From Sphingomonadaceae bacterium (GTDB lineage Bacteria > Pseudomonadota > Alphaproteobacteria > Sphingomonadales > Sphingomonadaceae), in contig JAHEGQ010000056.1 in NCBI GenBank assembly GCA_024645025.1, positions 1-37,472 on the forward strand: DNA of 37,472 nt. The letters are read 5' to 3'. Under the pieces are notes generated by a model that was given only the letters and a program-made list of their open reading frames with translations, did no database searches and was not told the DNA's origin. The translations under genes were made by a program, and so were the position numbers. This document shows, in pieces, positions 28,641-37,472 of this stretch (position 1 is its first letter; each line of letters begins with the position of its first letter).

Positions 28641-29233
28641 TGGCGGATTAGTCCCGTCTCTCTCAAAAAGGCGAGCAGCGGCAACAGCGGCAGGCCGATA
28701 ATGGTGAAGTGGCTGCCCTCTACCGTCTTGAACAGCTGGATGCCACGCCCTTCAATGCGATAGCCGCCCACCCCCGACAACAGGCCCTCGCCCTCCGCGG
28801 CCAGATAGTCCGCGATAAAAGCGGGCGATAAGGCGCGCATCGTCATGCGGGCTTCGTCCAAATGCCGCCAGATAACCTCGCCGCCGCGCGCGATGCTCAT
28901 TGCGGCAAACAGGCTGTGCGTTCGGCCCGAAAGCTGGGCAAGTTGCACTGCCAGCGCGTCCAGATTGGGGGCCTTGTCGAACATCTCGCCCGTCTCCAAA
29001 GCAAGGGTTTGGTCGCACCCCAGCACAAAAGCGGCGGGCCGCTCGGCGGAAACCGACAGCGCCTTGAGGTCGGCCAGCCCTTGTGCAAGCCCCGCGGCAT
29101 CCATCCCTGCCGCGCGCAGGCGGGCCTTTTCCAAATCTTCATCACACGGTGCCGACAGTGCTTCATGTGGGACGCCAGCAGATGCCAGAATCGCCCGGCG
29201 GCCCGCGCTTTGGGACGCAAGGATCAGGCTCAT
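28637..29233 (-). CDS. maf: Maf family nucleotide pyrophosphatase
   Basis: LILASQSAGRRAILASAGVPHEALSAPCDE; VLGCDQTLAL; stop overlaps aroE start (ATGA). Confidence 0.94.
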   Translation of the reverse strand: MSLILASQSAGRRAILASAGVPHEALSAPCDEDLEKARLRAAGMDAAGLAQGLADLKALSVSAERPAAFVLGCDQTLALETGEMFDKAPNLDALAVQLAQLSGRTHSLFAAMSIARGGEVIWRHLDEARMTMRALSPAFIADYLAAEGEGLLSGVGGYRIEGRGIQLFKTVEGSHFTIIGLPLLPLLAFLRETGLIRQ

Positions 29234-30048
29234 GGCTTACCCCCTCGGCGTTCGGCATAAATGTTGATGATCGCGGCGGCGGCCTCTTCGATAGAGCGCC
29301 GGGTCATGTCGATCACGGGCCAATCATTATCGGCAAACATCCGCCGGGCATAGGCCGTTTCGCGCGCGACAGCGTCCTGATCGACATAATCGGTGTCGGG
29401 CGCCTGGTTGAGCGCCAGCAGGCGGTTGCGGCGAATTTGGACCAGCCGTTCCGGATTGGTCACCAACCCGACGACCAGCGGATGCTTCACCTTGAACAAC
29501 AGGTCGGGAGGCGGGCTTTCGACAACGATGGGGATGTTGGCGGTCTTATATCCGCGATTGGCCAAGTAAATCGATGTCGGGGTTTTGGAACTGCGCGAAA
29601 CACCCGCCAAGATGATGTCCGCCTGTTCCCAATTTTCCCAATTCAGCCCGTCATCATGGGCGATGGTAAACTGAATGGCTTCAACGCGCGCGAAATAGGC
29701 ATCATCCAACAGATGCTGCAATCCGGGCCGGGCCTTGACCTTTTTGCCCAACACAGCGGACAGCGCATCCATGACGGGGTCAATCGCCCCGACATGAGGA
29801 AGGCCCAAGGCGGCGCAACGTTGCTCCAGCGCCACCCGAATGTCAGCGTTGACGATGGTAAAGAGGACAAGGCCTGGATTTTGGGCTATCTCGACCATGA
29901 TACGCTCAACCGCGCCTGGTGTGCGGACCATCGGCCAATAATGGCGCACGGGTTCCACATCGTCGAACTGGGCAAGCGCCGCCTTGACGACGGTTTCCAG
30001 CGTTTCACCGGTTGAGTCCGAAACAAGGTGAAGATGCAGTCGGGACAA
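29230..30048 (-). CDS. ppsR: Pyruvate phosphate dikinase / PEP synthase regulatory protein (DUF299 kinase-pyrophosphorylase)
   Basis: MSRLHLHLVSDSTGETLETVVKAALAQF; ADIILAGVSRSSKTPTSIYLANRGYKTANIPIV. Confidence 0.95.
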   Translation of the reverse strand: MSRLHLHLVSDSTGETLETVVKAALAQFDDVEPVRHYWPMVRTPGAVERIMVEIAQNPGLVLFTIVNADIRVALEQRCAALGLPHVGAIDPVMDALSAVLGKKVKARPGLQHLLDDAYFARVEAIQFTIAHDDGLNWENWEQADIILAGVSRSSKTPTSIYLANRGYKTANIPIVVESPPPDLLFKVKHPLVVGLVTNPERLVQIRRNRLLALNQAPDTDYVDQDAVARETAYARRMFADNDWPVIDMTRRSIEEAAAAIINIYAERRGGKP

Positions 30049-30347
30049 TGCGAAACGCCTATGTGGATAGAATTGGGGACAGGGCTAGCGGAAAGCCGTG
30101 GAGAAGTGCAAGCGGCGCGGATCGGGAAATCTCACGGGCTCTTGTCCACAGGCTTGCCAACAACGCGCCTGATTCATCCCGCCTTGTGGATAATGGGGAC
30201 GGTATGGATCGACTCTGCCCCCAGACGTTGGGGTGGGAGAGTCAAGCTGTGCGTGGAATCGCCTGAACCAAAGAATTCCCGTCTCGCGCCCCCCAACAAC
30301 TATCAACAACCTTTCAGAGTCTTTATTAATTGAATAGGGGAGAGGTT
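30049..30347. other. oriC: Candidate chromosomal replication origin (oriC) in the ppsR/hemE divergent intergenic region
   Basis: DnaA boxes TGTGGATAG (30062-30070), TTGTCCACA (30142-30150), TGTGGATAA (30185-30193, perfect TTATCCACA on -); GANTC at 30171, 30211, 30239, 30256, 30317; AT-rich 30301-30335; Caulobacter-type hemE/DUF299 context; divergent gene orientation. Confidence 0.75.
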
Positions 30348-31379
30348 ATGACTGTCATTCAAACCCGAAAACCTCTTCTCGAAACCCTAAAGGGCCAGCG
30401 TGCCGATCGTCTGCCCATGTGGCTGATGCGCCAAGCCGGCCGTTATCTGCCCGAATATCGTGCCCTGCGCGCGGAAAAAGGCGGTTTTCTGGAACTGGTG
30501 CACGACAGCGCGGCCGCGGCCGAAGTGACATTACAGCCCATTCGGCGCTTCGGGTTTGATGGCGCCATTTTGTTTTCCGACATTTTGGTCGTTCCCCATG
30601 CCTTGGGTCAGGACCTGTGGTTTGAAGCAGGCGAAGGCCCACGTCTTGCCCCTAAGCTGGTTGATGCCACGCTGGAGGCGCTCACCAAGGCCCCTGAGCG
30701 GCTCTTGCCGGTCATCGAGACAGTTCGGCAGGTCAAGGCCCTGTTACCGGGTGAAACGACCTTTCTGGGCTTTGCGGGAAGCCCCTGGACAGTCGCCACC
30801 TATATGGTCGCCGGGCAGGGCAGCCGCGAACAGGCCGAGACACGACGTTTTGCCTATCGCGACCCCAAGGCCTTCCAACAGATTATCGATGCGATTGCCG
30901 ATTTGACCATTAGCTATCTCTCGGACCAGATCAGCGCAGGCGTCGAAGCCGTTCAATTGTTTGACAGCTGGTCGGGCAGCTTAAGCCCGGCCCAGTTTGA
31001 AGATTGGGTGATTGCCCCAACGGCCAAGATTATCTCGTCCCTGAAGGCGCGGCATCCGGAAGCGGTTGTAATTGGCTTTCCAAAGGGTGCAGGCGGCAAG
31101 CTGCCGGCCTATGCGCGGGAAGTGGGGGCGGATGCGATTGGGCTGGATGAAACGGTAGATCCTGTCTGGGCGCACCAAAATCTGCCCAAGAATTTGCCTG
31201 TTCAGGGTAATTTGGATCCCTTGGCACTGATTGCGGGCGGCGCGACCCTGGATGCGGCGGTGACACGGGTGATTGACGCATTTGCGGATCGTCCCCATGT
31301 TTTCAACCTTGGCCATGGGATTTTGCCGGATACGCCGATTGCCCATGTCGAGGCGTTGGTTGCGCGCATTCGAGGATAA
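30348..31379 (+). CDS. hemE: Uroporphyrinogen decarboxylase
   Basis: RLPMWLMRQAGRYLPEYRALRAEKGGFLEL; start ATG 30348 preceded by GGGGAGAGG. Confidence 0.97.
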   Translation: MTVIQTRKPLLETLKGQRADRLPMWLMRQAGRYLPEYRALRAEKGGFLELVHDSAAAAEVTLQPIRRFGFDGAILFSDILVVPHALGQDLWFEAGEGPRLAPKLVDATLEALTKAPERLLPVIETVRQVKALLPGETTFLGFAGSPWTVATYMVAGQGSREQAETRRFAYRDPKAFQQIIDAIADLTISYLSDQISAGVEAVQLFDSWSGSLSPAQFEDWVIAPTAKIISSLKARHPEAVVIGFPKGAGGKLPAYAREVGADAIGLDETVDPVWAHQNLPKNLPVQGNLDPLALIAGGATLDAAVTRVIDAFADRPHVFNLGHGILPDTPIAHVEALVARIRG

Positions 31380-33287: not shown

Positions 33288-33929
33288 GTGACGCTTGACC
33301 TTGCCGATGTCCTCACGCCCGCAGGGCTGACGACGTTGCTGACGGTGATCCTGATCGACCTGACCATGGCGGGCGACAATGTCGTCATCATGGGCACACT
33401 GGCCTCTGGTTTGCCGGAGCGGGACCGGCGGCGGGTGATCATGGTCGGCGTTGCGATGGCGCTGGTTTTCCTGATCGGCTTTGCACTGACCGCGACCTGG
33501 CTGCTCAACCTAACCGGGCTGTTGCTGGCCGGTGGGCTGCTGCTGATGTGGGTCGCGTATAATATGTATCGGGAATTGCGCCCGCTGACGCCAGTGGTTG
33601 CGGACGACCCTGGAACGCCGGAAATCGAAGGCCCGCCAGCCACCAAAACCTTCATGCAGGCGGCAATCCAGATCACCTTGGCCGATTTGTCGATGAGCCT
33701 CGACAATGTCTTGGCCGTCGCTGCCGCGGCGCGCCAGCACCCGACGGTTCTGTTCTTTGGGCTGGCGTTGTCGGTGACGTTGATGGGCCTTGCCGCCAAT
33801 CTGGTTGCCAAGCTTGTCCAGCGCTACCACTGGATCGCATGGATTGGGCTTGTCATGATCTTATATGTGGCGCTCAATATGATTTGGGACGGCTGGTTTC
33901 AGGTCAGCCCCTTGCTGTTCGGGAGTTAA
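33288..33929 (+). CDS. TerC/YjbE family integral membrane protein (copy 1)
   Basis: LIDLTMAGDNVVIMGTLASGLPERDRRRVIMVG and ITLADLSMSLDNVLAVAAAA motifs; GTG start. Confidence 0.9.
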   Translation: MTLDLADVLTPAGLTTLLTVILIDLTMAGDNVVIMGTLASGLPERDRRRVIMVGVAMALVFLIGFALTATWLLNLTGLLLAGGLLLMWVAYNMYRELRPLTPVVADDPGTPEIEGPPATKTFMQAAIQITLADLSMSLDNVLAVAAAARQHPTVLFFGLALSVTLMGLAANLVAKLVQRYHWIAWIGLVMILYVALNMIWDGWFQVSPLLFGS

Positions 33930-34616
33930 GTGATGGACGGCCTTTCTGCCATTTGGACCGCGATTGCGACCGACTTTTCCAACATTACGGAACCCACGGC
34001 GCTGGCGGCTTTCATTCAGGTTTTGCTGATCGATCTGGTGCTGGCGGGCGATAATGCGATCGTTGTCGGTGCACTGGCGGCGGGTCTGCCAGCGGCGCAG
34101 CGCAAAAAGGTTATTCTCATCGGCGTTGTCGCGGCTTTGGTGTTGCGCATTATCTTTGCGCTGACGGTCAGCTGGCTTTTGGGTATTGTTGGCCTTGTTT
34201 TGGCGGGCGGACTGCTGCTGCTCTGGGTTGGCTGGCGCATGTATCGCGATCTCCACACCCATTCGGAATCGGGGGGCTCCCCGGAGATTCTGGGGGATGA
34301 ACATTCCGGGATTGCCCCGGCAAAAAGCTTTGCGGCCGCGGCATGGTCGGTCGCTGTGGCAGATGTTTCGATGAGCCTTGATAATGTGCTGGCGGTCGCC
34401 GGTGCAGCGCGCGAGCATCCGGGGATCCTGATCGTTGGCCTGATCTTTGCGGTCGCGTTGATGGGCGTCGCTGCCAATATCATTGCCCGATATATTGAAC
34501 GCTATCGTTGGATTGCGTGGTTTGGCTTGGCGGTGATCCTCTATGTCGCGGTCAAAATGATCTGGGAGGGCTATCACGAAGTCCATCCCCATATTCTGGC
34601 GCTGACGGGGGCCTGA
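33930..34616 (+). CDS. TerC/YjbE family integral membrane protein (copy 2)
   Basis: LIDLVLAGDNAIVVGALAAGLPAAQRKKVILIG and VAVADVSMSLDNVLAVAGAA; starts immediately after copy 1 (GTG 33930 or ATG 33933). Confidence 0.9.
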   Translation: MMDGLSAIWTAIATDFSNITEPTALAAFIQVLLIDLVLAGDNAIVVGALAAGLPAAQRKKVILIGVVAALVLRIIFALTVSWLLGIVGLVLAGGLLLLWVGWRMYRDLHTHSESGGSPEILGDEHSGIAPAKSFAAAAWSVAVADVSMSLDNVLAVAGAAREHPGILIVGLIFAVALMGVAANIIARYIERYRWIAWFGLAVILYVAVKMIWEGYHEVHPHILALTGA

Positions 34617-36168: not shown

Positions 36169-37440
36169 ATGACCCAAGTCGAGACGATCTTTGCCCTTTC
36201 CAGTGGCGCACCGCCGGCGGGCATTGCTGTTGTGCGGATCAGCGGCCCTGCGGCTGGGGCGGCGCTTGTTGCACTGGCGGGGGCGTTACCGCCGCCGCGC
36301 CATGCCAGTTATCGACGGGTGCGCGATGCGGCGGGGGCCGTGCTCGACCATGCGTTGATCTTGTGGTTTCCCGGCCCGCACAGTGCGACAGGCGAGGATT
36401 TGGCGGAATTGCATCTTCATGGTGGCCGCGCGGTGGTCGCTGCGGTTTTGGCGGCGCTGGCAGATCTGCCCGGCTGTGTTCCTGCCGAGGCTGGTGCCTT
36501 TACGCGTCGGGCCTTTGAGAATGGTCGGATCGACCTAAGCGCGGCGGAAGGGTTGGCCGATCTGTTGGCGGCAGAGACGGAGGGGCAGCGGCAATCCGCC
36601 CTTGTTCTGGCTGAAGGCGCGCTGGGACGTCAGGTAGCGTTATGGGAGGCCCGCCTTTTGGCGGAATCTGCGCGGATCGAGGCGCTGCTGGATTTTGCCG
36701 ATGAAGGGGATGTGGCCGATGCGCTGCCGGATACGAATGGCCTCTCGCTGTTGGTAGACGAGATGACGGCGCTGGCTGCTGCGCCGCCCGCGGAGCGTTT
36801 GCGCGATGGTGTCCGGCTGGTTTTGGCGGGCCCCCCCAATTCCGGTAAATCAAGCCTGTTTAACGCTCTGTCCGGCAGGGATGCGGCGATTGTCACCCCG
36901 ATTGCGGGCACAACGCGGGATCGGTTGGAGGCGCCGATCAGCCTGGAGGGGGTGCCCTTTTTGTTAATTGATACAGCGGGCCTGCGTGACATGACCGACG
37001 ACGCGGTGGAGGCGATCGGGATACAGCGGTCCGGCGAGGCGATGGTGCAGGCGGATATCCTCTTATGGCTTGGCGCGCCGGAGGACTGCCCATCGGGTGC
37101 GCTGCAACTGGCGACCAAGGCCGACCTCGCTTCTGGTGATCGACCCGGCTTGGCGGTATCGGTTGTGTCTGGGGCTGGCTTGAACGCGCTGCGGTCGGAG
37201 ATTCTGGCCCGTGCGCGTGCGCTGTTGCCCAAGCCGGGGGCGTTGGCACTTCATGCGCGTCACAGGTCGATTATGGGCGATGTCTTGCAGTGGCTGCGGG
37301 CTGCGGTTGCGGCGGACGATCTGCTGGTGCGGGCCGAGGTGCTGCGTTTGGCGCGGCAAGGTTTGGATGCGCTCACGGGGCGGTCTGGGGTCGAATCGAT
37401 GCTGGATGCGCTTTTCGGGCAGTTCTGTATTGGAAAATAG
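36169..37440 (+). CDS. mnmE: tRNA modification GTPase MnmE (TrmE)
   Basis: MTQVETIFALSSGAPPAGIAVVRISGPAA; GPPNSGKSSLFNALSGRDAAIVTPIAGTTRD; DTAGLRD; C-terminal FCIGK. Confidence 0.97.
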   Translation: MTQVETIFALSSGAPPAGIAVVRISGPAAGAALVALAGALPPPRHASYRRVRDAAGAVLDHALILWFPGPHSATGEDLAELHLHGGRAVVAAVLAALADLPGCVPAEAGAFTRRAFENGRIDLSAAEGLADLLAAETEGQRQSALVLAEGALGRQVALWEARLLAESARIEALLDFADEGDVADALPDTNGLSLLVDEMTALAAAPPAERLRDGVRLVLAGPPNSGKSSLFNALSGRDAAIVTPIAGTTRDRLEAPISLEGVPFLLIDTAGLRDMTDDAVEAIGIQRSGEAMVQADILLWLGAPEDCPSGALQLATKADLASGDRPGLAVSVVSGAGLNALRSEILARARALLPKPGALALHARHRSIMGDVLQWLRAAVAADDLLVRAEVLRLARQGLDALTGRSGVESMLDALFGQFCIGK

Positions 37441-37454
37441 CGCGCCTGTCGGCC

Positions 37455-37470
37455 TGTTTCACGTGAAACA
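37455..37470. promoter_or_regulatory. parS: parS centromere site (ParB binding palindrome)
   Basis: Perfect 16-bp palindrome TGTTTCACGTGAAACA; last A begins ATG at 37470-37472, the presumed start of mnmG/gidA, which runs off the window. Confidence 0.88.
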
Positions 37471-37472
37471 TG

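Follow-up and report, generated by a model that had tools for sequence, protein, structure and literature searches.

The window, a 37,472-nucleotide stretch of a Sphingomonadaceae draft genome, closes on a perfect parS palindrome. This is very probably an ordinary origin-proximal parS, at which ParB would nucleate beside the predicted promoter of mnmG-rsmG-parA-parB. What is added beyond an ordinary, well-conserved parS is a parS-promoter composite.

A perfect parS site near the candidate origin

Positions 37455-37470 read TGTTTCACGTGAAACA, an exact match to the 16-bp parS consensus, and the window terminates in ...GGCCTGTTTCACGTGAAACATG. This was the sole parS-like match with 2 or fewer mismatches anywhere in the window, and at the same threshold no match was found in 100 shuffled window sequences. 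The initial annotation had called a perfect parS here, about 7.1 kb from a candidate oriC, and both claims were borne out. The 16-mer is exact, unique in the window and close to the candidate oriC (about 7.1-7.4 kb), and the genome encodes a cognate ParB. Support for the candidate oriC comes from the neighboring genes, the GC skew and three DnaA-box-like sites. All three sites fall in a 132-bp stretch; one is perfect and the other two have a single mismatch each. The cumulative GC-skew minimum, near 29-30 kb, coincides with the candidate oriC (Table 1). Between rho and mnmE, at 33288-34616, are two adjacent similar genes that by eye look like tandem, TerC-like integral membrane paralogues.

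Table 1. Coordinates of features in the window and on the adjoining contig C76
Feature	Position	Strand	Basis or remark
Kinase/pyrophosphorylase gene, oriC flank	29230..30048	-	PF03618
Candidate oriC, intergenic	30049..30347	.	DnaA-box-like sites, gene context, GC-skew minimum
DnaA-box-like 9-mer	30062-30070	-	
DnaA-box-like 9-mer	30142-30150	+	
DnaA-box-like 9-mer	30185-30193	-	
hemE, other oriC flank	30348..31379	+	URO-D Pfam match
mnmE (trmE)	36169..37440	+	TrmE_N and MnmE_helical Pfam matches; 3' end 14 bp before parS
Overlap with C76 end, 22 bp	37451..37472	+	Equals L006 minus strand 4770-4749
parS, perfect palindrome	37455..37470	.	Consensus match; corresponding upstream site in 112/120 relatives
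ATG, A shared with parS	37470..37472	+	9-codon frame closed by TAG on C76; not the mnmG start
parS-like site in mnmG	+1358 from MnmG GGGHAG motif		Contig C76
parS-like site, rsmG 5' end	+1858 from MnmG GGGHAG motif		Contig C76
parS-like site, rsmG 3' end	+2364 from MnmG GGGHAG motif		Contig C76

The window stops where its contig stops, and its last 22 bases recur on another contig, C76, which runs on into mnmG, rsmG, parA and parB, the genes expected downstream by the initial annotation, all of which were identified by Pfam (MnmG, RsmG, ParA-type ATPase and ParB). C76 by itself carries parS through parB, while the link to mnmE is made by the 22-bp overlap and conserved synteny. Both draft contigs end exactly at parS, as would fit a break of the assembly graph close to the palindrome. 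The mnmG, rsmG, parA and parB reading frames overlap by ATGA in the source genome, and the order mnmG followed by rsmG-parA-parB was kept in 77/77 of the relatives' loci long enough for the test.

We used the same mismatch limit to search the draft genome. All 5 parS-like sites found lay on C76 or at the window's contig end, compared to 1 match for a reversed-pattern control. One of the 5 is the same upstream site recounted in the overlap of C76 with the window's contig (C6), leaving four parS elements clustered within about 2.5 kb that span mnmG-rsmG and adjoin parA-parB. No copy turned up elsewhere in this draft (2.23 Mb, 78% complete, such that distant copies could be missing), which places the whole set about 7 kb from the candidate oriC.

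The encoded ParB is full-length by Pfam (ParB_N, HTH_ParB and ParB_C), and its best PDB match was Caulobacter ParB (6t1f, E 1.5e-65). Alignment with the latter revealed conservation of the GERRWRAA segment and the GKSRSH recognition region, supporting assignment of a parS-type DNA-binding domain. The local protein keeps R173 and G201, known as parS-type specificity residues (PMC7383237). It bears L and N at positions 179 and 184, respectively, versus T and A in Caulobacter ParB; according to the same study, both vary from one ParB homologue to another (PMC7383237).

Selection on the parS DNA

We gathered 120 distinct loci by MnmG similarity, and not by parS. A parS-like site was present upstream of mnmG in 112 of these, including most members of other orders. 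Within rsmG, the VSRET/VPRET segment was encoded as GTT-(T/C)CA-CGT-GAA in 103/105 cases, compared to an expectation of about 0.0015 per case based on mnmG codon usage. Since the upstream site and the parS-forming rsmG codons are both so widely retained, the parS DNA itself is under selection across relatives. Synonymous positions in rsmG are accordingly constrained by parS, a point to bear in mind when codons are used in evolutionary analysis.

The parS site inside mnmG (about +1358) was confined to part of the window's genus (L125-L132, L134-L136 and the window's own mnmG), and non-carriers have unrelated residues there. Elsewhere in the genus, an intragenic parS lies instead at +656 or +958, and these differing positions look like turnover of coding parS sites. 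In one locus (L122), two sites, at -113 and +1852 relative to the MnmG motif, share the sequence TGTTTCGCGCGAAACA, in which the CACGTG core is changed to CGCGCG; the specificity of ParB may have shifted in that lineage.

The mnmG start codon and predicted promoter

The bases following position 37470 are TG, so the last A of parS is indeed the A of an ATG, as had been annotated. In contrast to the annotated reading, however, this ATG is not the start of mnmG, although it is in the mnmG frame: it reads MFDLNARSA followed by a TAG stop. MnmG homology starts 39 nt further on, at the following in-frame ATG (L006:4712, minus strand, on C76), after the promoter-like element, and likewise in the close relatives that were aligned. 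Since mnmG starts there, parS does not occupy its ribosome-binding region. We considered whether the open 9-codon frame, being in phase with mnmG, might encode a leader peptide that controls it. This is hardly credible: a parS-fused ATG was present in only 15/120 loci, where the frames were unrelated or missing, and in the window the ATG immediately precedes the predicted -35 element, upstream of the predicted transcription start. The leader peptide was therefore rejected for want of conservation.

The interval from parS to the mnmG ATG comprises TTGACC, 17 bp, TAGCGC and six bases, with parS ending 3 bp 5' of the predicted -35 element. In the genus alignment, TTGAC and GCGTAGCG blocks were prominent beside parS. 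Among 86 distinct Sphingomonadaceae loci, TTGAC began between -38 and -33 in 73, versus 0.43 expected, and at -35 or -36 in 64 of those 73. In the -10 element, T and A were conserved at 96% and 95%, respectively, with TA at -12 from the ATG, and a Shine-Dalgarno-like motif preceded mnmG in 11/86. The promoter motif was less common outside the family (6/32). A generic sigma-70 scan of positions 36900-37472 identified no promoter; the promoter-like element lies past the window end.

The spacing of the -35 and -10 elements to the ATG, together with the rarity of Shine-Dalgarno motifs, is that of a leaderless promoter, and this geometry predicts that the first transcribed base is the A of the mnmG start codon. 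The leaderless mnmG mRNA hinted at by the initial annotation is thereby supported as a prediction. The hairpin that the annotation placed at the start of the mRNA is not. Since the promoter-like element lies downstream of the palindrome, the predicted transcript would exclude parS, and the local RNA fold at parS was no better than that of shuffles (z 0.11). Leaderless mRNAs are known in Zymomonas, a sphingomonad relative (119 TSS-gene pairs; PMC7566282). We regard it as improbable that the TTGAC...TA block, known here from its consensus, is instead some other protein-binding or spacing element, since the distances from the ATG, -35/-36 for TTGAC and -12 for TA, fit sigma-70 spacing, and the Zymomonas transcripts provide a documented precedent.

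This predicted promoter followed parS, forming a composite, at 73/80 upstream sites. The composite was absent on the opposite side of parS at these 80 sites, as well as at the rsmG 5' parS site (0/84). Across the family, 194/401 genomes contained the composite, while a reversed-pattern control matched only a handful. At 16/78 rsmG 3' parS sites, TTGACC-N-TA followed 4 bp later, just upstream of parA. These 16 sites come from a subset of L021-L045 and from L062, and 15 of them belong to one cluster of relatives, in a conserved coding stretch; the motif may serve as a promoter for parA or may be there by chance as part of the coding sequence.

Probable segregation role and possible regulation

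Based on homology, ParB would nucleate at the parS cluster, close as a CTP-dependent clamp and spread across the flanking kilobases; the ParB-loaded region would then serve as cargo for ParA, moving the origin. The predicted promoter would start leaderless mnmG and transcribe the overlapping mnmG-rsmG-parA-parB genes. We infer ParB binding, spreading and segregation, as well as leaderless transcription and a single transcript. Segregation would be the main role, with any promoter effect arising from adjacent ParB occupancy. Since parS sits beside the predicted operon promoter, autoregulation by ParB is possible, as is the effect of ParB on mnmG transcription raised by the initial annotation; occupancy there could mildly autoregulate parAB.

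Alternatively, the site might act chiefly as an operator, at which ParB controls the mnmG operon promoter in a ParA/ParB feedback, leaving the centromere role to the other sites. Placement of parS directly before the promoter at 73/80 Sphingomonadaceae upstream sites favors this view, as do the tightly packed gene order ending in parAB and the ability of the intergenic parS3/parS4 sites of P. aeruginosa to repress adjacent promoters (PMC5521831). We nevertheless judge it unlikely. The gap between parS and the -35 element ranges from 1-44 bp, with one outlier at 229, and parS persists in loci outside the family, which carry the promoter motif less often (6/32). In addition, the P. aeruginosa gidA and parA promoters were unregulated when tested in E. 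coli (PMC3909081). The regulatory precedents point both ways. Helical phasing of parS relative to the -35 element was suggested by a first set of loci (R 0.43; p 0.004-0.04 with clades merged within 1-3 bp, although simulation outcomes varied with the indel model); it failed to replicate at 10.5 bp in a larger family set (P 0.05-0.15) and was dropped.

An ordinary parS beside a predicted promoter remains our preferred reading. A more speculative extension, which we consider rather doubtful, is that the composite constitutes one conserved Sphingomonadaceae element in which ParB loading feeds back on the leaderless operon, coupling assembly of the segregation complex to the supply of ParA/ParB and of the tRNA/rRNA modification enzymes.

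Comparison with known systems

A parS cluster in Caulobacter crescentus was reportedly described by Toro et al. in 2008. The organism resembles the present case in having several parS sites within a few kb near ori that support ParABS segregation, and in bearing parS inside essential or high-fitness-cost genes. It differs in parS number and exact placement, the composite being defined here for Sphingomonadaceae. ChIP-seq identified at least five Caulobacter parS sites about 8 kb from ori (Tran et al., PMC5815017). In Hyphomonas neptunium, about 7 kb separate parAB from hemE/ori, and ParB bound the two upstream parS sites in EMSA (PMC6650430). The layout of parAB/parS relative to hemE/ori, at about 7 kb, is the same here, although there are four parS sites rather than two, one of them inside mnmG and confined to part of the genus. 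Like parS3/parS4 of P. aeruginosa (PMC5521831), the window's parS is intergenic and adjoins a predicted promoter; ParB repression was demonstrated for the former, at other genes.

Taken together, these findings correct the mnmG start codon at the contig junction and bring parAB, the predicted promoter of their operon and a segregation site together in one small conserved block, which opens ParB autoregulation of chromosomal parAB to direct testing in a laboratory sphingomonad.
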